Shown: in pieces, positions 28,378-56,575 of the stretch | Position numbering within the stretch: the stretch's first letter is position 1 | Layout of the letters: each line of letters begins with the position of its first letter | Origin: Reyranella sp. | GTDB lineage: Bacteria > Pseudomonadota > Alphaproteobacteria > Reyranellales > Reyranellaceae | DNA length: 64,000 nucleotides | Direction: 5' to 3' | NCBI RefSeq assembly: GCF_004297405.1 | Contig: NZ_SCVC01000040.1 | Location: 62,001 to 126,000 of the forward strand | Made by a program: the position numbers and the translations under genes | Notes under the pieces: model-generated | Told to the model about the DNA's origin: nothing | The model's database searches: none | The model's input: the letters and a program-made list of their open reading frames with translations, nothing else

Positions 28378-29349
28378 TCATTCCACCTTGACGCCGGCCT
28401 TGTCGATGATCGGCTTCCATTTGGCGAACTCCGCCTTTTGGAAGGCTGCGAAAGCGTCAGGCTGCATTTGGGCGGGCGTCGGGATGTCCTGGCCGAGATC
28501 TTCGAGCTTGCGCCGGATCTCCGGGTCCTTGAGGGCGGCGACCGCCGCAGCGTTCAGCTTGTCGATGATGTCACGCGGCGTGCCTTTGGGCGCCCAGAGG
28601 CCGTGCCAGATCGCGACCTCGATGCCGGGGAAGCCGGCCTCGGCCGTGGTCGGGATATCGGGCGCGGCCGCCGTCCGCTGCTTGGCGGTCACGGCATAGA
28701 CCTTGAGCTTGCCCGCGCGCACATGCGGCAGGGAATTCGAGGACTGATCGATCATGATCTGGATCTGATTGGCGATCAGGTCCTGTACCGCCGGGCCGGT
28801 GCCGCGGTAGGGCACGAGCTGGTAGTTGGTGCCGGTGACGGCGAAGAAGGCCAGCGCACCGATATGGGAGCCTGAGCCCATGCCTGCCGTGCCGCCCGAT
28901 ATTTTGCTCGCATTGGCGTTCAGATAGGCAACGAGCTCCTTCAAGTCCTTCGCCGGAACCTGGTTCGAGGTGACGACCAGCAGCGGATTGGACGGCAGCA
29001 GGGCGACCGGCAGCAGATCGTTCTGCAGGTCGTAGTTCAGGTTCTTGTAGATCGCACCGTTCACCACGTTGGTGCCGAGATGGCCGATGCCGATTGTGTA
29101 GCCGTCGGGCGCAGAGCGGGCGAGCTTGCCCATGGCGATCGATCCCGCGGCGCCCGTCACATTGTCGATGATCAGCTGCTGGCCAAGCTCCTTGGACATG
29201 CGCTCACCCACGATGCGTGCCATCACGTCGGTCGGCCCACCGGCGGAAAAGGGAACAATGAGGTTGATCGGTTTGTTCGGATAGGCCTGGCCGAACGCCG
29301 GGCTCGCTGCCGCCACCGCCAGCATGGCGAGCGCACTTCTACGCAACAT
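28378..29349 (-). CDS. Bug/TctC family periplasmic solute-binding protein
   Basis: The protein has 323 residues with a signal peptide (about 1-20, ending AFGQ). NKPINLIVPFSAGGPTDVMAR and the GAAGSIAMGKLA segment are characteristic of the tripartite tricarboxylate transporter receptor family. It binds a carboxylate in the periplasm. No TctA/TctB membrane genes are present, as is usual for the many orphan Bug genes. GGGAGGA precedes the start. Confidence 0.9.
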   Translation of the reverse strand: MLRRSALAMLAVAAASPAFGQAYPNKPINLIVPFSAGGPTDVMARIVGERMSKELGQQLIIDNVTGAAGSIAMGKLARSAPDGYTIGIGHLGTNVVNGAIYKNLNYDLQNDLLPVALLPSNPLLVVTSNQVPAKDLKELVAYLNANASKISGGTAGMGSGSHIGALAFFAVTGTNYQLVPYRGTGPAVQDLIANQIQIMIDQSSNSLPHVRAGKLKVYAVTAKQRTAAAPDIPTTAEAGFPGIEVAIWHGLWAPKGTPRDIIDKLNAAAVAALKDPEIRRKLEDLGQDIPTPAQMQPDAFAAFQKAEFAKWKPIIDKAGVKVE

Positions 29350-29422: not shown

Positions 29423-31294
29423 TCAATGCGCAGGGGGATCGAGCGCCATGGTGACCAGCACCGTGCGGTTGGAAACCTGCTGGCCCTCGTGCACGGAGAT
29501 CGCCTCGACCTTGGCATCAAGGGCCGCCTTGAGCTGGTGCTGGATCTTCATGGCTTCGAGCACGACCAGGGTCTGGCCGCGGCTCACCTGCTCGCCGGGC
29601 GCCACTTTGATCGAGACGATGCGGCCATCCATCGGGGCGCGCAGCTTGCCGTCGCTTCCCGCTGCGGCGGTTTCGGGCGGGGCATAGGTCTTGTCGGTGA
29701 AGCGCACGGTGAAGGCATCGAGATCGACCACGATATCGTCGCCGTCGATATGGAAAGGCATCTCGTGGGGAGGCCGAATTCCGTCGACATGGAGCAGGCG
29801 CTCCGCGCCATTGGCCGCCAATCGGATCGGCGTCGGCTCGGGATTGGAGTTACGCCAGCCGCGCAATGGGGCCGGATAGTGTTCCGCCGAAGCCTGCCAC
29901 AGGAGGTTCGCCGCCGCCGTCCAATGCGCATCGCTGATCGCAGGACCTGGGAACTCGTGCTTCGTGAGAAAGGCCGTCGTTGCCTCGCCGGCCGCGAACT
30001 CGGGATGCTCCAGCAGGCGGATCAGGAAATGCCGATTGGTCGTCGGACCCAGCACGACAGTCTCGCGCAGTGCACGGATCAGGCGGGTTCGCGCTTCCTC
30101 GCGCGTGGCGCCATGGGCGATCACCTTGGCGATCATCGGATCGTAGAAGGGCGAGATCGCAAGCCCGTCCTTCATGCCATGGTCGATGCGCACGCCGGGG
30201 CCGGTTGCGGGCCGCCACACATCGATGCGGCCGGTCTGGGGCAGGAAGCCACCATAGGCATCCTCGGCATAGAGGCGCACTTCGATGGCGTGTCCGGCAA
30301 ACGTGATGTGATCCTGCGTCAGCGGCAGCTTCTCACCGCGGGCGACACGGAGCTGCCACTCGACGAGATCGAGCCCGGTGATCGCTTCCGTCACCGGATG
30401 CTCGACCTGCAAGCGGGTGTTCATCTCCAGGAAATAGAACACACCATCACTGCCCAGGAGGAATTCGACCGTCCCGGCGCCGCGGTAGCCGATCGCTTCT
30501 GCGGCTGCAACGGCGGCTGCGCCCATGCGCCGGCGCAGATCGGCGTCCACGGCGGGCGAGGGTGCTTCCTCGATCACCTTCTGATGGCGGCGCTGCACCG
30601 AGCAATCGCGTTCGCCGAGGTGGACGACGTTGCCGTGCGCATCGGCGAAGACCTGGATTTCGACATGCCGGGCATCGACCACGGCTTTTTCCAGGATCAA
30701 CTCGCCGGACCCGAAGGCGCTCTCGGCTTCGGTGCGTGCCGTGCGGATCGCTTCGAGCAGGTCGCCGTCGTGCTCGACCAACCGCATGCCGCGGCCGCCA
30801 CCGCCCGCCGCGGCTTTAACCATGACCGGCAGGCCGATCTTGCGCGCTTCCTTCTCGAGGTTGCCGTCGCTCTGGTCGGCGCCCTGATAGCCCGGCACGC
30901 AGGGGACCTTGGCCTCGATCATGCGCCGCTTGGCGGCGGCCTTGTTGCCCATGGCTGCGATGGCCGAGGCCGGTGGGCCGATGAAGACGATGCCAGCCTT
31001 CTCGCACGCCGCTGCGAATGCCTCGTTCTCCGAGAGGAACCCATATCCTGGGTGGATCGCATCGGCGCCCCTCTTGCGGGCGGCTTCCAGGATGCGGTCG
31101 ATGCTAAGATAGCTTTCACCGACAGGCGGTGGGCCGACCCGGACGGCTTCGTCGGCAAAGGCGACGTGCGGCGCTTCCTTGTCGGCGTCGGAGTAGACTG
31201 CGACGGTGCGATAGCCCATCGCCTTGGCCGTGCGCATCACGCGCCAGGCGATCTCGCCGCGATTGGCGACCAGAACCTTGGTGAAGCCCATCAC
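29423..31294 (-). CDS. Acyl-CoA carboxylase biotin-carboxylase/BCCP subunit (MCC/GCC alpha-like)
   Basis: The protein is about 623 residues. The biotin carboxylase part has KVLVANRGEIAWRV, HPGYGFLSEN, the glycine-rich ATP loop KAAAGGGGRGMR and EMNTRLQVEHPVTE. After a variable linker the carrier domain ends with EAMKIQH, and the biotinyl lysine is about residue 583. It charges biotin with bicarbonate for the carboxyltransferase encoded upstream in this operon. GTG 31294 has the better-spaced GAGGA; ATG 31291 is equally usable. Methylcrotonyl-CoA and geranyl-CoA carboxylases both have this architecture. Confidence 0.9.
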   Translation of the reverse strand: MMGFTKVLVANRGEIAWRVMRTAKAMGYRTVAVYSDADKEAPHVAFADEAVRVGPPPVGESYLSIDRILEAARKRGADAIHPGYGFLSENEAFAAACEKAGIVFIGPPASAIAAMGNKAAAKRRMIEAKVPCVPGYQGADQSDGNLEKEARKIGLPVMVKAAAGGGGRGMRLVEHDGDLLEAIRTARTEAESAFGSGELILEKAVVDARHVEIQVFADAHGNVVHLGERDCSVQRRHQKVIEEAPSPAVDADLRRRMGAAAVAAAEAIGYRGAGTVEFLLGSDGVFYFLEMNTRLQVEHPVTEAITGLDLVEWQLRVARGEKLPLTQDHITFAGHAIEVRLYAEDAYGGFLPQTGRIDVWRPATGPGVRIDHGMKDGLAISPFYDPMIAKVIAHGATREEARTRLIRALRETVVLGPTTNRHFLIRLLEHPEFAAGEATTAFLTKHEFPGPAISDAHWTAAANLLWQASAEHYPAPLRGWRNSNPEPTPIRLAANGAERLLHVDGIRPPHEMPFHIDGDDIVVDLDAFTVRFTDKTYAPPETAAAGSDGKLRAPMDGRIVSIKVAPGEQVSRGQTLVVLEAMKIQHQLKAALDAKVEAISVHEGQQVSNRTVLVTMALDPPAH

Positions 31295-31304
31295 GCGACC
31301 GTCC

Positions 31305-32123
31305 TCATTCTACCGCCCAACGCGGCGGCCGCTTCTCGGCGAAAGCACGCAGCCCTTCGGCAGCCTCAGGACCGCGGCGCGCTTCGGCGAACTTGTCGGC
31401 AGCGAAGTCGAGAACCGACGACAGCGGCTCGCTGCCGACCTTCATCACGACCTGCTTGGTGAGAGCGTTGGCGATCGGCGCGCACTTGTCGATCTGCTTC
31501 AGGATCTCTTCCAGCTTGGCATCGAGGGCTGCGGAGTCCGCCACGAGATAGTGCGCAATGCCGAGCCGCAGCGCTTCGGGACCCTTGAAGCGAGCTGCGG
31601 TGAGGGTGAGATGCCGGGTCTGCGGCACGCCGATGCGGGCGGCGACGAAAGGCGCGATCTGTGCCGGCACGATGCCGAGCGCCGTCTCGCTCATGGCGAA
31701 GCCCGCGCCTTCGGTGCAGATCGCGACGTCGGAGACGCAGAGGATGCCGAAACCACCCGCAATGGCGAAGCCTTCGACGGCGGCGACCACGACCTGCGGG
31801 CTGGTGTTCATCATCTCGAGGAACGACCCGAACTGGCGGTTCCAGACCGCGATCGGGTCCTTCTCGCCGGGCTTGGGCTTCTCGGTGAAGCTCTGCTCCA
31901 TGTTCTTGAGGTCGGCGCCGGCGCAGAAGGTGCCGCCGGCTCCACGCAGGACCACGACCTTGATGTCGCGACGATCACGCAGGATCTCGAAGACGCTGCG
32001 CAGCTCGCCGATCAGGGTCGGGTTCAGCGCATTCTTCACGTCGGGGCGATTGAGGGTGACATGCAGGCGTGAACGATCGCGATGCAGCAGGAGGGTCTCG
32101 TACTTGTCGGCGAACTCGGCCAT
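31305..32123 (-). CDS. Enoyl-CoA hydratase (methylglutaconyl- or isohexenylglutaconyl-CoA hydratase-like)
   Basis: The protein has 272 residues with the crotonase fold. The oxyanion-hole segments are FCAGADLK and the EGFAIAGGFGILCVSD loop. The acid/base position after the second loop has ETALGIVPAQIAP, similar to LiuC and AtuE. It hydrates the carboxylated enoyl-CoA made by the flanking carboxylase. I chose ATG 32123, with GGAGC upstream, over TTG 32135. It lies 10 bases before the biotin subunit gene. Confidence 0.86.
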   Translation of the reverse strand: MAEFADKYETLLLHRDRSRLHVTLNRPDVKNALNPTLIGELRSVFEILRDRRDIKVVVLRGAGGTFCAGADLKNMEQSFTEKPKPGEKDPIAVWNRQFGSFLEMMNTSPQVVVAAVEGFAIAGGFGILCVSDVAICTEGAGFAMSETALGIVPAQIAPFVAARIGVPQTRHLTLTAARFKGPEALRLGIAHYLVADSAALDAKLEEILKQIDKCAPIANALTKQVVMKVGSEPLSSVLDFAADKFAEARRGPEAAEGLRAFAEKRPPRWAVE

Positions 32124-32168
32124 TGGGAGCTCCAAACTTGTGTCAGCGATCCAGGTCGGCGAATCAGG

Positions 32169-33329
32169 TCAGCGATTTTCCAGACGGGGCAGGGTGCCCA
32201 TCAGCTTGGAGATGATCTGCAGCATCACCTCGTCGGCGCCGCCGCCGATCGAGGCGAGGCGTGAATCGCGGAAGGCGCGTGCCGTGGGCGACTCCCACAA
32301 ATAGCCCGCGCCGCCCCAGTATTGCAGGCAGCCATCGGTCACCAGGCGCACCATGCGACCGGCCTTGAGCTTGGCCATCGAGGCCAGCATCGTGACGTCG
32401 GTGCCGTCGAGATACTCCTCGCAGGCGCGATAGCAGAGGGACCGCACCAGTTCGACCTCGGTGCGCAGCTCGGCGAGCTTGAAATGGATCACCTGGTTGT
32501 CGAGCAGCGGGCGGCCGAACACCTTGCGCTCGCGCGTGTATTCGATCGTCTGGTCGATCAGCCGCTCCATGCCGACCACGGCGCTGATGGCGCCCCACAG
32601 CCGCTCCTCCTGGAACTGCTGCATCTGGTAGACGAAGCCCATGCCTTCCTGACCGATCAGGTTTCGGACCGGCACCTTCACATCATCGAGGAAGATCTGT
32701 GCCGTATCGGAGCTGCGCATGCCGAGCTTGTCGAGCTTCTTCACGACCTCGACGCCCTTGGTCTTCATCGGCAGGCAGATCAGCGACTTGTTCTTGTGGA
32801 CCGGACCCTCGCCCGTGCTGGCCAGCAGGCACATCCAGTCGGCCTGGGTGCCGTTGGTCGTCCACATCTTGCCGCCGTTGATCACCCAGTCGCCGCCGAC
32901 GCGGCGGGCCGTGGTCTTGATCGAGGCGACGTCCGAGCCGGCGCCCACTTCCGAGACGCCGAGGCAGGCGACATAGTCACCGGCAATCGACGGCGTCAGG
33001 AATTCCTTGCGCAGCTCATCACTGCCGTAGCGCGCCAGTGCCGGTGTGGCCATGTCGGTCTGCACACCGATCGCCATCGGCACCGAGCCGCAGTTGATGT
33101 GGCCCAACTCCTCGGCCATCACCATGGCGTAGGAATAGTCGAGCCCCATGCCGCCGTATTCGACCGGCTTGTTGATGCCGAGCAGGCCGGCATCGCCCAG
33201 CTTCTTGAACACCTGATGGGCGGGGAAGATGCCGTCCTCTTCCCATTTGTCGACATGCGGATTGATGTCCTTGTCGATGATCGCCCGGAGCGTGCGGCGG
33301 ATCTCGTCATGTTCCTGTGTGAACTGCAT
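32169..33329 (-). CDS. Acyl-CoA dehydrogenase, second of a tandem pair
   Basis: The protein has 386 residues, the SCAD/IVD length. It has CLGVSEVGAGSDVASIKT (FAD and substrate binding), WVINGGKMWTTNG, ERKVFGRPLLDNQVIHF and QYWGGAGYLWE. Near the C-terminus, GGGADEVML aligns with the region holding the catalytic glutamate in SCAD-type enzymes. It makes the 2,3-double bond that precedes carboxylation. It is the same length as the gene just upstream and about three quarters identical by eye, so the two arose by tandem duplication. Confidence 0.9.
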   Translation of the reverse strand: MQFTQEHDEIRRTLRAIIDKDINPHVDKWEEDGIFPAHQVFKKLGDAGLLGINKPVEYGGMGLDYSYAMVMAEELGHINCGSVPMAIGVQTDMATPALARYGSDELRKEFLTPSIAGDYVACLGVSEVGAGSDVASIKTTARRVGGDWVINGGKMWTTNGTQADWMCLLASTGEGPVHKNKSLICLPMKTKGVEVVKKLDKLGMRSSDTAQIFLDDVKVPVRNLIGQEGMGFVYQMQQFQEERLWGAISAVVGMERLIDQTIEYTRERKVFGRPLLDNQVIHFKLAELRTEVELVRSLCYRACEEYLDGTDVTMLASMAKLKAGRMVRLVTDGCLQYWGGAGYLWESPTARAFRDSRLASIGGGADEVMLQIISKLMGTLPRLENR

Positions 33330-33338
33330 GGCGCGCTC

Positions 33339-34499
33339 CTACCGGTTGCCCAATCGGGGCAGGGTGCCCATCAGCTTGGAGATGATCTGAAGCATGACTT
33401 CGTCGGCGCCGCCGCCGATCGAGCCCAGTCGTCCGTCGCGGTAGCCGCGCGCCACCGGATTGTCCCAGAGATAGCCCGCGCCGCCCCAGTATTGCAGGCA
33501 GGAGTCCGACACCTCGCGGCGGAGCCGACCGGCCTTCAGCTTGCCCATCGAGGCAAGCATCGTGACATCCTTGCCGGCGAGATAGTCCTCGCAGGCGCGG
33601 TAGACGATGGATCGCAGCGCCTCGACCTCGCTCTTGAGCTCGGCCAGGCGGAAATGGATCACCTGGTTGTCCAGCAGCGGCCGGCCAAAGACCTTGCGTT
33701 CGCGGGTGTATTCGATGGTGGCGTTGATCAGCCGCTCGCAGGTCATCAGGGAGCCGGCGCCCGCCCATAGCCGCTCTTCCTGGAACTGCTGCATCTGATA
33801 GATGAAGCCCTGGCCCGGCTGGCCGATCGTGTAGCGCACAGGCACCCGGACATCGTCGAGGAAGGTCTGCACCGTGTCCGAGGCACGCATGCCGAGCTTG
33901 TCGAGCTTCTTCACGATGGAGACACCCTTCGTCTTCATCGGCACGACGATCAGCGACTTATTCTTGTGTGCCTGGCCGTCGCCAGTGTTGGCCAGCAGGC
34001 ACATCCAATCGGCTTGCGCGCCGTTGGTCGTCCACATCTTGCCGCCGTTGATCACCCAGTCACCGCCGACGCGGTGTGCCGTGGTCTTGATCGAGGCGAC
34101 GTCGGAGCCTGCGCCGGTCTCCGAGACGCCGAGGCAGGCGACATAGTCGCCGGTGATCGATGGCGCCAGGAACTCCTTGCGCAATTCGTCGCTGCCGTAG
34201 CGGGCGAGCGCCGGTGTCGCCATCGAGATCTGCACGCCGGTCGCCATGGGGATCGAGCCGCCATTCACCATGCCGAGCGATTCCGCGCAGATCATGGCGT
34301 AGGAGAAATCGAGGCCGGAGCCGCCGAATTCGACCGGCTTGTCGACGCCGAGCAAGCCGGCATCGCCCATCTTCTTGAAAAGCTCGTGGGCGGGGAATTG
34401 GCCTTCCTGCTCCCACGCGTCGACGTGAGGATTGATCTCGCGATCGATCAGCGTCTTCCAGGTCTGGCGCAGCGCCTCGTGCTCGGGGGTGAATTTCAT
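33339..34499 (-). CDS. Acyl-CoA dehydrogenase, first of a tandem pair
   Basis: The protein has 386 residues and matches its downstream neighbour over the whole length without gaps: same FAD motif (GVSETGAGSDVASIKT), same VFGRPLLDNQVIHF and same GGGADEVML end. The N-terminal helices and the HINCG/MVNGG region facing the acyl chain differ most, which fits divergence in chain-length or branching preference. AtuD (citronellyl-CoA dehydrogenase) occupies this operon position in Pseudomonas. Nine bases separate the two dehydrogenase genes. Confidence 0.9.
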   Translation of the reverse strand: MKFTPEHEALRQTWKTLIDREINPHVDAWEQEGQFPAHELFKKMGDAGLLGVDKPVEFGGSGLDFSYAMICAESLGMVNGGSIPMATGVQISMATPALARYGSDELRKEFLAPSITGDYVACLGVSETGAGSDVASIKTTAHRVGGDWVINGGKMWTTNGAQADWMCLLANTGDGQAHKNKSLIVVPMKTKGVSIVKKLDKLGMRASDTVQTFLDDVRVPVRYTIGQPGQGFIYQMQQFQEERLWAGAGSLMTCERLINATIEYTRERKVFGRPLLDNQVIHFRLAELKSEVEALRSIVYRACEDYLAGKDVTMLASMGKLKAGRLRREVSDSCLQYWGGAGYLWDNPVARGYRDGRLGSIGGGADEVMLQIISKLMGTLPRLGNR

Positions 34500-34502
34500 T
34501 CG

Positions 34503-36119
34503 CTACATCCTCGCGACGCCGAAGGTGATGGGATTGAGGGGCCGCACGATCGACTCGCGGGCAATCGACAGGGTGAAGGCGAGCACGCGGCGCGTGTCGC
34601 GCGGATCGATGATGCCGTCGTCCCAGAGATGCGCTGTGCCATAGAGCGCCGTCGATTCGCGCTCGAACTGGTCGACGATGCTCTTGAACATCTTGTCGAT
34701 CTGCTCGCGCGGCGGCTCCTTGCCTTCGCGCTGGAACTTCTGCTCCGTCACCGTCTTCATGACGCCGGCCGCCTGTTCGCCGCCCATCACCGCCGTGCGG
34801 CTGTTGGGCCAGGCGAAGATGAAGCGCGGATCGTAGGCGCGGCCACACATACCGTAGTTGCCGGCCCCGAAGCTACCGCCGATCACGATGGTGATCTGCG
34901 GTACGGTGGCGTTGGCGACGGCCTGGATCATCTTCGAGCCATGCTTGACGATGCCGCCACGCTCGGCCTCGGTGCCGACCATGTAGCCGGTGGTGTTCTG
35001 CAGATAGACGATCGGTGTGCCCTGCTGGCAGCAAAGCTGGATGAACTGGGCCGCCTTCACGGCGCCCTTGGTGGTGATCGGGCCGTTGTTGCCGATCAGC
35101 GCCACCGGCTCACCCTCGATCTCGGCCCAGCCGCAGATCGTCTGCTGGTCGAACAGGCCCTTGAATTCGAGGAAGTCCGAACCGTCGACCAGCCGCGCGA
35201 TGACCTCGCGTACGTCGTAGGGATCCTTGTGCGATGGCGGGACGACGCCGCAGAGTTCGTCGATGTCGTAGAGCGGGTCCTTGAACGGCTTGGTCTTGCT
35301 CGGCGGCAGCTTGTCGTTCCAGTGCCACTTGGCGATCACGTCGCGCGCCATACGGACGCCGTCGGCATCGTTCTCGGCCATCCATTCGGCAACGCCGGAC
35401 ACAGTGGCGTGCATCTCCGCGCCGCCCAGATCTTCGTCGGTGGCGATCTCGCCGGTCGCGGCCTTCAACAGCGGCGGCCCGGCCAGGAAGACCTTGGCCT
35501 GGTTGCGCACCATGATGACGTAGTCGGAGAGGCCGGGCAGATAAGCGCCGCCGGCCGTCGACGAGCCGTGCACGACCGTCACCTGGGGAATGCCGCGGGC
35601 CGACATGCGCGCCTGGTTGGCAAAGCCACGGCCGCCGGGAATGAAGATCTCGGCCTGATAGAGAAGATTGGCGCCGCCGGATTCGACCAGGTTCACAACC
35701 GGCAGCTTATTCTCCATCACGATCTGCTGGACGCGCTGGCCCTTGCGCTGGCCGGAGGGCGCGACGGTGCCGCCTTTGATGGCCGAGTTCGACGCCGTCA
35801 CGATGCAACGCACGCCCTCGACATAGCCGATGCCGGCGACGGAGCCGCCGCCCGCGCTCGAACCATCCTTGTCGTCATGCATGCGATAGCCGGCCAGCGG
35901 CATCAGTTCGAGGAATGGCGCGCCGCGATCGAGCAGCAGGGCAATGCGTTCGCGCGGCATGAGCTGCTTACGTTTGCGGAAACGCTCACGTGACTTCTCG
36001 GACGCGGCCTGCACGCTCGCCTCGGCGTCGCGGAACTCCTGGATCGCCGCCAGCATGCGCTCGCGGTTCTTCTTGAACTCGTCGCCGTTGCGGTCGACCT
36101 GGCTTTCGATGATGGGCAT
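34503..36119 (-). CDS. Acyl-CoA carboxylase carboxyltransferase subunit (MCC/GCC beta-like)
   Basis: The protein has 538 residues. The N-half contains ESGGANLLYQAEIF, GSSTAGGAYLPGLSD and GPPLLKAATGE, and the C-half contains QNTTGYMVGTEAERGG, KHGSKMIQAVANA, IGGSFGAGNYGMCGRAYDPRF and VMGGEQAAGVM. These are the two crotonase-like halves of the beta subunit. It transfers carboxyl from biotin to the gamma position of a branched enoyl-CoA. The QNTTGYMVG and AVANATVPQ wording recalls AtuC more than LiuB to me, but only a phylogeny would decide. Confidence 0.9.
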   Translation of the reverse strand: MPIIESQVDRNGDEFKKNRERMLAAIQEFRDAEASVQAASEKSRERFRKRKQLMPRERIALLLDRGAPFLELMPLAGYRMHDDKDGSSAGGGSVAGIGYVEGVRCIVTASNSAIKGGTVAPSGQRKGQRVQQIVMENKLPVVNLVESGGANLLYQAEIFIPGGRGFANQARMSARGIPQVTVVHGSSTAGGAYLPGLSDYVIMVRNQAKVFLAGPPLLKAATGEIATDEDLGGAEMHATVSGVAEWMAENDADGVRMARDVIAKWHWNDKLPPSKTKPFKDPLYDIDELCGVVPPSHKDPYDVREVIARLVDGSDFLEFKGLFDQQTICGWAEIEGEPVALIGNNGPITTKGAVKAAQFIQLCCQQGTPIVYLQNTTGYMVGTEAERGGIVKHGSKMIQAVANATVPQITIVIGGSFGAGNYGMCGRAYDPRFIFAWPNSRTAVMGGEQAAGVMKTVTEQKFQREGKEPPREQIDKMFKSIVDQFERESTALYGTAHLWDDGIIDPRDTRRVLAFTLSIARESIVRPLNPITFGVARM

Positions 36120-36124
36120 GGGTC

Positions 36125-36988
36125 TCAGCCGCCCAACACTTTGGGCGTCTTGGCGAGGTGGAAGCCGTTGAAGGCCTGGGACTTGTCAGTGGCGGGCAGG
36201 TCGACGGACCGGTTGGCCAGCGGCACGCCGCCGTCGATACGGATTTCCGTGCCGGTGATGTAGGCCGACGCGTCGCTCAACAGGAAGCAGACGGCGGCTG
36301 ACACTTCGCTCTCCGTACCGAGGCGGCCGAGCGGGCAGTAGCCCTTGAGCTTGGGGATCTGCTCCTTGAACTCGCCAGTATAGGTGTCCATGCCGGAGGA
36401 GGCGATCCAGCCCGGCGCGACGGAATTCACGCGCACGCCGGCCGCCGCCCATTCGTAGGCGAGCGTCATGGTGAGGTTTGCCATGCCGGCGCGGGCGGCG
36501 CCGGTATGAACCATGTTGGGAAAGCCGTTGCGATAGTCGGCCGTCATGTTGACGATCGAGCCACCGTGGTTCTGCATTGATTGAGTGAAGACTTCGCGGC
36601 TGACCAGGAAGCCGCCGGTGAGATTATTGCGCACCACCACGTCGAAGCCTTTAGCGCTGAGCGACGCGGCCGGCGAGGGGAACTGGCCGCCGGCATTGTT
36701 GAACAGGCCATGGATGCGGCCGTTGTTGGCGACCATCGCGGCCACCGCGTCCTTGACCTGGGTTTCCTCGCGGATGTCGAAGACATGCGTCTCGCAAGAG
36801 CCGCCAGCCGCTTCGATCTCGCCCCGAACGGTGTCGAGCTTCTCCTGCTTGCGGCCGCAGATCGCGACGTGGGCGCCGAGGGCGGCGATCTCGTGGGCAG
36901 TGCAGCGGCCAATTCCGCTGCCGCCGCCGGTCACGATGACGGTCCGGCCGTTGAACAGTCCCGGCGTGAAGACCGAGCGATACGACAT
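36125..36988 (-). CDS. SDR family oxidoreductase at the head of the carboxylase operon
   Basis: The protein has 287 residues with the cofactor loop TGGGSGIG. Instead of YxxxK it has HTGAARAGMANLTMTLAYEWA, the dienoyl-CoA-reductase-like variant also seen in the SDR at 11.1 kb. Pseudomonas atuB, also an SDR, holds the same operon position. I chose ATG 36988 because GGAGG lies four bases upstream; the longer frame to 37036 runs into the promoter. It is the first gene behind the MerR-type palindrome at 37078. Confidence 0.85.
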   Translation of the reverse strand: MSYRSVFTPGLFNGRTVIVTGGGSGIGRCTAHEIAALGAHVAICGRKQEKLDTVRGEIEAAGGSCETHVFDIREETQVKDAVAAMVANNGRIHGLFNNAGGQFPSPAASLSAKGFDVVVRNNLTGGFLVSREVFTQSMQNHGGSIVNMTADYRNGFPNMVHTGAARAGMANLTMTLAYEWAAAGVRVNSVAPGWIASSGMDTYTGEFKEQIPKLKGYCPLGRLGTESEVSAAVCFLLSDASAYITGTEIRIDGGVPLANRSVDLPATDKSQAFNGFHLAKTPKVLGG

Positions 36989-37077
36989 GTTTCCTCCGCC
37001 TTTGACACGGCAGTTATCGGCCGCCCGCTGGTGCATCCAAGCATCTTGTGATGTGCGGTTCGTTACTCGGGCTGTAT

Positions 37078-37099
37078 TTGACGTTTACGTAAAGGTCAA
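37078..37099. promoter_or_regulatory. 22-bp palindromic operator of MerR (LiuR-like) type
   Basis: The left arm TTGACGTTTAC is followed by the right arm GTAAAGGTCAA, complementary but for one position. An almost identical 22-mer lies before the MerR regulator gene at 54280-54301. It sits between the divergent SDR (start 36988) and SCP2 (start 37150) genes. TTGACG at its left edge and TAAG 17 bases later may be promoter elements for the SCP2 gene. Confidence 0.75.
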
Positions 37100-37149
37100 G
37101 TAAGCCGGGCCAGGTCATTTCATTGGGCAATTCGACCTGGGAGCAAGCC

Positions 37150-37446
37150 ATGACGTTGCAGGAAATCACCGCGAAAATGACGGAAGGGGCCTCGAAGAAG
37201 TCCGCCTTCGGGAACTCTGTGAAGTTCGCCACGGATCAAGGCATCGTGCACATCGACGGTAACCAGAATCCGCCGGCGGTGAGCAACGACGACAAGGCCG
37301 CCGATTGCACCATCAAGATGGATTTCAGCGATTTTGCCGACCTGATCGGTGGCAAGCTCGACGGCATGACGGCGTTCATGACCGGTAAGCTGAAGATCGA
37401 AGGCGACATGGGCGTCGCCATGAAGCTGCAGAGCATCCTGCGCTAA
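37150..37446 (+). CDS. SCP2 sterol-binding domain protein
   Basis: The protein has 98 residues, a single SCP2 domain: an N-terminal helix, the strand VKFATDQGIVHIDG, ADCTIKMDFSDFADLIGGKLDGMTAFMTGKLKIEGDMGVAMKLQ at the end. The GKLKIEGD motif is diagnostic. Such proteins carry sterols, fatty acyl-CoAs or other lipids in the cytoplasm. I chose ATG 37150 with GGGAG upstream. It diverges from the acyl-CoA carboxylase operon across a shared operator, so it probably serves the same lipid-like substrate. Confidence 0.9.
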   Translation: MTLQEITAKMTEGASKKSAFGNSVKFATDQGIVHIDGNQNPPAVSNDDKAADCTIKMDFSDFADLIGGKLDGMTAFMTGKLKIEGDMGVAMKLQSILR

Positions 37447-53628: not shown

Positions 53629-53640
53629 GTTCGTACTTCT

Positions 53641-53714
53641 GTCATCCTGAGCGAAGCGAAGGATCTCATGATGTGTCTACCGGCGATGAGGTCCTTCGCT
53701 TCGCTCAGGACGAC
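53641..53714. repeat. Long inverted repeat (REP-like hairpin)
   Basis: TCCTGAGCGAAGCGAAGGA (53645-53663) is perfectly repeated in reverse complement at 53692-53710, and similarity continues on both sides of each arm to about 30 bases. The 28-base centre is single stranded. Such CCTGAGCGAAGCGAAGGA repeats occur as dispersed palindromes in several bacterial genomes. It lies between two minus-strand genes and could end or stabilise their transcripts. Confidence 0.75.
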
Positions 53715-53724
53715 AAGGAAGCCG

Positions 53725-54257: not shown

Positions 54258-54301
54258 CTTCCGTTTACGTTAACCTGCATTGACGTTTACGTAAACGTTA
54301 A
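54258..54301. promoter_or_regulatory. Tandem MerR (LiuR-like) operators
   Basis: The stronger site (54280-54301) has arms TTGACGTTTAC and GTAAACGTTAA, one mismatch from perfect, and is nearly identical to the site at 37078. A weaker copy matching about 15 of 22 positions lies immediately before it (54258-54279), so the centres are exactly 22 bases apart, on the same helix face. The pair lies between the gamma-carbonic anhydrase and MerR genes. Confidence 0.75.
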
Positions 54302-54317
54302 CTAAGACTTCGTCACC

Positions 54318-54761
54318 ATGTCCGTCGCCGCCTCATCTTCCGCCAAGAGCGCCGTGCCGCGTGACACACAGCGCATCTATAGCATCGCCGAACTGTCACG
54401 CGAGTTTGCGATCACGCCCCGCACGATCCGCTTCTACGAGGACGAGGGCCTGATCAAACCGCGTCGCCAGGGAATGACGCGCCTCTACAGCGTCGGCGAC
54501 CGCACGCGGCTCGGCTGGATCCTGCGCGGCAAGCGGCTGGGCTTCTCGCTCGCCGAGATCCGCGAGCTGCTCGATCTCTACCAGGTCGACCGCACCGGCG
54601 TGCAGCAGTTGCGCGAGCTCCTGCGCCGCAGTCAGCTCCATATCGCCGATCTCGAGCGCAAGCGCGCCGATCTCGATCAGCACATCAACGAGTTCAGGGA
54701 AGTCGAAAATCAGGTGAGTGCCGAGTTGCGTCAGCGCGGTGTCGATCCTGAGAGTGATTAG
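54318..54761 (+). CDS. MerR family transcriptional regulator (LiuR-like)
   Basis: The protein has 147 residues. The winged helix-turn-helix begins with YSIAELSREFAITPRTIRFYEDEGLI, then RRQGMTRLYS in the wing and LGWILRGKRLGFSLAEIRELLDLY. A coiled coil (about 100-140) forms the dimer. It has no cysteine pair for metal and no ligand domain, like LiuR and related acyl-CoA-pathway regulators. Palindromes directly upstream suggest autoregulation, and the matching site at 37078 suggests it controls the carboxylase operon. It precedes a large acyl-CoA dehydrogenase gene. Confidence 0.88.
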   Translation: MSVAASSSAKSAVPRDTQRIYSIAELSREFAITPRTIRFYEDEGLIKPRRQGMTRLYSVGDRTRLGWILRGKRLGFSLAEIRELLDLYQVDRTGVQQLRELLRRSQLHIADLERKRADLDQHINEFREVENQVSAELRQRGVDPESD

Positions 54762-54787: not shown

Positions 54788-56575
54788 ATGGCCGTCTACA
54801 AGGCCCCGATCAAAGACATCCAGTTCGTTCTGAACGAAGTGCTCGACGTTTCGTCGCTCGCCAAGCTGCCGGGCTACGAGGAAGCGACGCCCGACACGAT
54901 CCACGCCATCGTCGAGGAAGCAGCTAAGCTTTGCGAGAACGTGCTGTTCCCGCTGAACCGCACCGGCGACGAGGAAGGCTGCCACTACGAGAACGGCGTG
55001 GTGCGGACGCCCAAGGGCTTCAAGGAAGCTTATAAGCAGTTCGCCGAGGGCGGCTGGACGGCCGTGACCTGCGATCCCGAGTTCGGCGGGCAGGGCCTGC
55101 CGGCGACGGTGGGCTTCGCGCTGCAGGAGATGTTCACGGCGTCGAACCAGGCTTTCGCCATGTATCCGGGGCTGAGCCACGGCGCCTACGAAGCGCTGTC
55201 GCGCCACGGTTCGGACGACCTCAAGAAGAAGTACCTGCCCAAGCTCACCGACGGCACGTGGACGGGCACGATGTGCCTCACCGAGCCCCATTGCGGCACC
55301 GATCTCGGCATGCTGCGCACGCGCGCTGAGCCGCAGGCCGATGGCAGCTACAAGATCACCGGCACCAAGATCTTCATTTCTGCCGGCGAGCACGATCTCG
55401 CGGAGAACATTCTCCACCTTGTGCTGGCGCGTCTGCCGGATGCGCCCGGTGGCACCAAGGGCATCTCGCTCTTCCTCGTACCGAAGTTCCTGCCCAAGGC
55501 TGACGGCTCGGTCGGTGAGCGCAACGGCATCCGCTGCGGCGCCGTCGAGCACAAGATGGGCATCAAGGCCAACGCGACTTGCGTCATGAACCTCGACGGC
55601 GCGACCGGCTGGCTGGTCGGCGAGCTGAACAGGGGCATGCCGGCCATGTTCGTGATGATGAATGCCGCGCGCCTCGGCGTCGGCATGCAGGGGCTGGGCA
55701 TTGCCGAGACCTCCTACCAGAGCGCCGTCGCCTATGCGCGCGACCGGTTGCAAGGCCGCTCGCTCACCGGTCCGAAGAATGCCGGCGGTCCGGCTGATCC
55801 CATCATCGTGCATCCCGATGTGCGGCGCATGCTGATGATCCAGAAGTCGTTCACCGAGGCAGCGCGCGCGCTGTCGCTGTGGGTCGGCATGTTGATCGAC
55901 GAGGCGCACTCCCATCCCGATGCGGAGAAGCGCGCCGCGGCCGACGATCTCGTCCAGATGCTGACGCCGATCATCAAGGCTCACTTCACCGACATGGGCA
56001 GCGAGTGCGCCAACCTCGCGGTGCAGACCTATGGCGGCCACGGCTATATCCGCGAGAACGGCGTCGAGCAGCTCGTACGCGATGCCCGCATCACTCAGCT
56101 CTACGAAGGCACCAACGGCATCCAGGCGCTCGATCTGGTCGGCCGCAAGCTGCCGATGAAGGGTGGGGCCGCCGCACAACGCCTGCTGGGCGAGATCTCG
56201 TCCTTCGTTGCGACCCACAAGGCCGACGAGAAGATGAAGGAGTTCGTCGAGCCGCTGGAGAAGGCGCTCGGTCGGGTGCAGGACTCGGCGCTCTTCCTGA
56301 TGCAGAACGCCATGAAGAATCCGGACGAGGCCGGTGGCGCGGCGAGCGATCTGCTGCGCTTGATGGCCCTGACGGCCATGGCCTTCATGTGGAACCGCAT
56401 CGCGGTTGCCGCTCACAAGGGGCTGGCGGCTGGCAACGACAATGCCTTCTACGAAGCCAAGCTCGTCACCGCGCGTTTCTACATGGCGCGCGTGCTACCG
56501 CAGACAGTTTCGCTCAACCATCAGATCAAGGCGGGCGCCTCGACCCTGATGGCTTTGCCGGCCGAGGCCTTCTGA
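54788..56575 (+). CDS. Acyl-CoA dehydrogenase, large form (DmdC-like)
   Basis: The protein has 595 residues. Core motifs MCLTEPHCGTDLGMLRTRAEP, YKITGTKIFISAGEH and TQLYEGTNGIQALDLVGRK are clear, with the catalytic glutamate in YEGTNGIQ. An extra C-terminal helical domain (about 465-595) marks the subfamily with 3-methylmercaptopropionyl-CoA dehydrogenase and long-chain enzymes. It oxidises an acyl-CoA to enoyl-CoA. It follows the MerR gene by 26 bases, so it is likely in the same regulon. Confidence 0.9.
   Translation: MAVYKAPIKDIQFVLNEVLDVSSLAKLPGYEEATPDTIHAIVEEAAKLCENVLFPLNRTGDEEGCHYENGVVRTPKGFKEAYKQFAEGGWTAVTCDPEFGGQGLPATVGFALQEMFTASNQAFAMYPGLSHGAYEALSRHGSDDLKKKYLPKLTDGTWTGTMCLTEPHCGTDLGMLRTRAEPQADGSYKITGTKIFISAGEHDLAENILHLVLARLPDAPGGTKGISLFLVPKFLPKADGSVGERNGIRCGAVEHKMGIKANATCVMNLDGATGWLVGELNRGMPAMFVMMNAARLGVGMQGLGIAETSYQSAVAYARDRLQGRSLTGPKNAGGPADPIIVHPDVRRMLMIQKSFTEAARALSLWVGMLIDEAHSHPDAEKRAAADDLVQMLTPIIKAHFTDMGSECANLAVQTYGGHGYIRENGVEQLVRDARITQLYEGTNGIQALDLVGRKLPMKGGAAAQRLLGEISSFVATHKADEKMKEFVEPLEKALGRVQDSALFLMQNAMKNPDEAGGAASDLLRLMALTAMAFMWNRIAVAAHKGLAAGNDNAFYEAKLVTARFYMARVLPQTVSLNHQIKAGASTLMALPAEAF

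Follow-up and report, generated by a model that had tools for sequence, protein, structure and literature searches.

The atu genes of Pseudomonas are regulated by the TetR-type AtuR. LiuR has been described as a repressor of the MerR family that acts on branched-chain amino-acid use (PMC3223726), and a survey table gives LiuR regulons in 103 proteobacterial genomes (PMC5343134). Classical MerR activators are found at promoters with 19-20-bp spacers, and in their 22-bp sites the centre of the palindrome lies 8 bp from the -35 (PMC8113463, PMC5045206). Geranyl-CoA carboxylase is marked by a Gly that replaces the Phe of methylcrotonyl-CoA carboxylase (MCC) and by the absence of the 3-residue insertion before it (PMC4673880). 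In the window, i.e. the whole stretch of 64,000 nucleotides of Reyranella sp. DNA analysed here, a palindrome upstream of a merR gene is a real, conserved site for a regulator of known type whose target set has changed. We consider it likely that this palindrome serves as operator for the LiuR-type MerR protein (gene at 54318-54761), which would repress three operons until an acyl-CoA releases it.

The strong palindromic operator, site A (TTGACGTTTACGTAAACGTTAA, 22 bp, 54280-54301), lies upstream of merR, accompanied by a weaker copy (CTTCCGTTTACGTTAACCTGCA, 54258-54279) placed exactly 22 bp from it. Site B (TTGACGTTTACGTAAAGGTCAA, 37078-37099), in the intergenic region between the SCP2 gene and the carboxylase operon, has 2 mismatches to site A; all three features are listed without a strand. 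Both palindromes and the second copy had been described in a first-pass annotation made from the letters of the sequence, and each was found where it had been placed, the 22-bp spacing of the weaker copy being conserved in 34/56 orthologous promoters. Using pattern searches that allowed mismatches, with the reversed pattern as control, we screened the whole 6.46-Mb genome. The search yielded three sites within 3 mismatches and none for the control, and not the many random matches that would have told against a shared operator. Site A is matched exactly, site B is the second, and site C (TTGACGTTTACGTAAAGGTAAA, G000:C48:38101-38122) is located outside the window on another contig. Within the window no site besides A and B was found at up to 3 mismatches, and dinucleotide shuffles gave 0 (expected 0.00). 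Two further weak sites, C30:12176 and C49:44039 (14-bp core, 1 mismatch), were rejected, the control pattern giving 10 matches; no palindrome of the 22-bp kind was present in their surroundings.

The regulator encoded downstream of site A (54318-54761, forward strand) is a translated protein of 147 aa with no cysteine, carries the Pfam domains MerR_1 and MerR-DNA-bind and reaches no metal-sensor cut-off. Its closest relative is a 99% identical protein of Reyranella massiliensis 521, followed by other Reyranella loci, and a phylum-wide search revealed MerR relatives that are about 50% identical. In several genomes outside the class, which are probably gammaproteobacteria, these relatives precede an (isovaleryl-CoA-dehydrogenase-like) acyl-CoA dehydrogenase gene, and at the one such locus that reaches far enough the MCC beta gene follows the MerR relative, which is the liu gene order. 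Among alphaproteobacteria they mostly precede a large acyl-CoA dehydrogenase or a thiolase. In the tree, a support of 99/98 separates the regulator and its relatives, among them the liu-linked MerR proteins, from the next four MerR paralogs in the genome, these paralogs having long branches. Because of this grouping and the liu-linked gene order of its relatives we call the protein LiuR-type, in agreement with the class proposed in the first-pass annotation. As in its relatives, a palindromic operator stands ahead of the regulator's own gene.

Directly 3' of merR lies the gene for a large acyl-CoA dehydrogenase of 595 aa (54788-56575, forward strand; Pfam), separated from it by a gap of 14-163 bp at all ortholog loci that are long enough; from gene order, the two are probably co-transcribed. 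Site B is flanked by the gene for an SCP2 sterol-transfer-family protein (37150-37446, forward strand; Pfam SCP2, 1e-19), for which we chose the ATG at 37150 from the sequence (the longest ORF begins with TTG at 37123), and by a divergent six-gene operon on the reverse strand. The first gene of this operon encodes a short-chain dehydrogenase (36125-36988; Pfam), its start at 36988 being preferred to 37036; most orthologs align only from residue 10-14. It is followed by genes for an AtuC-like carboxylase beta subunit of the geranyl-CoA-carboxylase type (34503-36119), two acyl-CoA dehydrogenases (33339-34499 and 32169-33329; both Pfam), an enoyl-CoA hydratase in the position of AtuE (31305-32135; Pfam ECH_1) and an AtuF-like biotin carboxylase/biotin carrier alpha subunit (29423-31294; Pfam), whose best solved match is the MCC alpha subunit. 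Among solved structures, the beta subunit matches geranyl-CoA carboxylase best (5ikl, 801 bits versus 555 for MCC). At the selectivity position it has Gly and lacks the insertion (EIFIPGGRGFANQA), whereas the MCC beta subunit of the same genome has Phe and the insertion (EVFPDKTHFGRIFYNQA). Judged by these marks the operon carboxylase is of the geranyl-CoA-carboxylase type, a predicted activity whose substrate would be terpenoid. On the same strand, 73 bp after the carboxylase operon, a gene for a TctC-family substrate-binding protein is found (28378-29349). Far from the operon, the genome has a single AtuA-family (PF07287) match in an 810-aa open frame (L174, G000:C26:75091-76422). A literature search on terpene use by Reyranella returned nothing relevant.

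The genes behind site C encode an acyl-CoA dehydrogenase, a thiolase and a FadB-like protein; lying outside the window, this operon is a regulon member missed by the first-pass annotation, which had predicted one regulon covering the SCP2 gene, the six-gene operon, the large acyl-CoA dehydrogenase and a gamma-carbonic anhydrase. The first three members are retained and the fourth is unsupported. The gamma-carbonic anhydrase gene is divergent from merR in the window and lies 0.6-4.5 kb from it in many relatives, and no conserved TTGAC/TA signature was detected on its side of site A in 56 promoters; on these sequence grounds it is probably not in the regulon. The intergenic region between this gene and a glyoxalase-like gene contains a 30-nt inverted repeat (53640-53715, TGTCATCCTGAGCGAAGCGAAGGATCTCAT) with 93% complementarity and a 16-nt loop, which is REP-like and the sole copy in the window. 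Furthermore, no site was found in the 19 kb surrounding the MCC (liu) operon on contig C49, and thus the regulon differs from the liu regulon after which LiuR is named.

Across Reyranella, sites A, B and C are seen again at the same genes, in nearly all of the congeners searched, where the control pattern gave 0; since all counts that follow are drawn from genomes related to each other, they are not independent. The palindrome precedes orthologous merR genes in 56/56 readable distinct promoters (one further locus, masked at the operator position, is left out), usually 38 bp ahead of the start. Of these promoters, 34 have a second core (at most 2 mismatches in 12) at offset 22, 6 have one at offset 28 and 2 have one at another offset, and 16 show at least 6 mismatches in 12 over the stretch at offset 22; the weaker copy is thus common but dispensable. 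Between the SCP2 gene and the carboxylase operon, site B is present in all 34 genus promoters. Of 30 promoters of the distant acyl-CoA dehydrogenase, 29 have site C and one is without it. Outside the genus, carboxylase loci of the same class with the SCP2 arrangement, from six families, have the site in 12/12 cases at up to 4 mismatches (11 at up to 2), and it is absent in 7/7 carboxylase-beta homologs elsewhere in the class that lack this arrangement (exact probability 2e-5, ignoring relatedness). Moreover, a MerR relative is present in 19/20 of these genomes, the lone exception also being without the site, and across families the LiuR-type merR keeps its operator while the neighbouring genes change. 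In genome G392, the carboxylase locus has a site but the vicinity of the MerR relative yielded none. The carboxylase locus of G497, another genus of the same family, bears an altered palindrome (TTGACGCTTACGTAAGCGTCGC; L237, 446-467), with the merR site altered too and no SCP2 match within the fetched stretch. One congener has an extra, weaker palindrome (ATTGCGTTTACGTAAGCGTCAA; L170, 5153-5174; G001:C128:16152-16173) with no homolog of the queried regulon genes nearby.

At each site the arm that would serve as the -35 of the target gene reads TTGAC and is followed by TA after 17 bp. The combination TTGACG-N17-TAAG, noted earlier for both strong sites, is indeed present at both. The predicted merR promoter, TTGACG-N17-TAAGAC (54280-54308, forward strand), has its whole -35 within the palindrome, and toward merR both TTGACG and the TA at N17 are conserved in 56/56 promoters; the opposite arm is variable at the corresponding position (G 32, A 21, T 3), with no conserved TA beyond it. 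Toward the dehydrogenase, site C has TTGAC in 28/29 and TA in 29/29 promoters, and its opposite arm reads TTTAC in 29/29. Site B has TTGAC in both of its arms in 34/34 promoters. Here TAAG faces SCP2, in the predicted promoter TTGACG-N17-TAAGCC (37078-37106, forward strand; TA at N17 in 34/34), and a second box, TTGACC-N17-TACAGC (37071-37099, reverse strand; TA at N17 in 33/34), faces the carboxylase operon as its predicted promoter. All these promoters are predictions, since the -10 letters past the TA match poorly and a strict consensus promoter scan gave no match in either operator region. We read A and C as predicted one-directional promoters and B as two predicted, overlapping divergent ones. 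The centre of the palindrome lies 5 bp from the -35 and the spacer between -35 and -10 is 17 bp, a geometry that favours a putative simple repression of ordinary promoters.

In the proposed mechanism, a dimer of the MerR protein would bind the 22-bp site and, by covering the -35 and most of the 17-bp spacer, would repress an ordinary promoter until an acyl-CoA intermediate releases it. Site A would govern merR itself and the large acyl-CoA dehydrogenase, and hence provide autoregulation; site B would govern the SCP2 gene and the divergent six-gene carboxylase operon via the overlapping promoters, and site C the distant acyl-CoA dehydrogenase/thiolase/FadB-like operon.

A different mode of action, in which the protein is a classical activator that untwists an over-long spacer upon ligand binding, would suit a member of the MerR superfamily whose palindrome overlaps the promoter region. 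We regard it as unlikely, as the conserved TTGAC-TA spacing is 17 bp with the centre 5 bp from the -35 (the -10 being predicted only) and the protein has no cysteine and reaches no metal-sensor cut-off. Even less probable is that a different, unlinked regulator binds the palindrome and merR is merely among its targets. Palindromes of 20-22 bp are bound by many regulators and the pairing of protein and site rests on sequence, but the LiuR-type merR retains the site across families as its neighbours change, genomes with the carboxylase site have a MerR relative, and a LiuR box has been reported ahead of its own gene, e.g. in Rhodospirillum rubrum (PMC7238569). A chance resemblance of the two window sites, or their origin as copies of a repeat element, is refuted by the scans of genome and genus, and we assign it a negligible probability: the shuffle expectation is 0.00, the reversed control gave 0 in the genome, and the conservation is gene-specific with arm differences particular to each site.

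To our mind it is evenly balanced whether, in several alphaproteobacterial families, a LiuR-type regulator has shifted from leucine breakdown to a regulon of terpenoid and fatty-acid oxidation, in which a single palindrome provides the -35s of two overlapping divergent promoters and position 3 of the arm marks the transcribed direction. The three-operon regulon is directly testable. Through it, in several alphaproteobacterial families, an SCP2 protein and an operon of the geranyl-CoA-carboxylase type become linked to a regulator family that is already known, and comparing the sites shows a way in which the direction of a promoter may be written into one palindrome. If this is true, the compound that induces the regulator would be a pointer to the substrate that the carboxylase uses in nature.

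Compared with LiuR of Proteobacteria (PMC3223726, PMC5343134), the Reyranella regulator is alike in its approximately 50% identity to relatives that precede liu-type genes, in the palindromic operator that precedes its gene and in its predicted acyl-CoA catabolic targets, which include a biotin-dependent acyl-CoA carboxylase. The differences are the geranyl-CoA type of this carboxylase, the beta-oxidation genes that make up the other predicted targets, and the absence of a site at the MCC operon. LiuR of Rhodospirillum rubrum is likewise alphaproteobacterial, with a box before its own gene and before catabolic clusters, but there the ILV boxes precede ivd and the liu clusters (PMC7238569); this likeness is by description, the letters of the box not being given in the text. 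With the Atu pathway of Pseudomonas (PMC4097962, PMC4673880), the carboxylase operon shares a short-chain dehydrogenase, carboxylase beta, acyl-CoA dehydrogenase, hydratase and carboxylase alpha (AtuB, C, D, E, F) and the geranyl-CoA carboxylase signature of the beta subunit, whereas two dehydrogenases, the divergent SCP2 gene and the LiuR-type operator set Reyranella apart. The DNA-binding fold and a palindrome overlapping the promoter are shared with MerR, CueR, ZntR and EcmrR, from which Reyranella differs by a spacer of 17 bp instead of 19-20 and a -35 wholly within the palindrome; unlike the metal-sensing MerR activators, its protein is without cysteine and reaches no metal-sensor cut-off. 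Alphaproteobacterial LiuR orthologs were reportedly assigned to fatty-acid degradation by Kazakov et al. in 2009. If that is right, the operators of merR/large dehydrogenase and of site C would be expected, and the geranyl-CoA-carboxylase-type operon with SCP2 would be the new part of the regulon.
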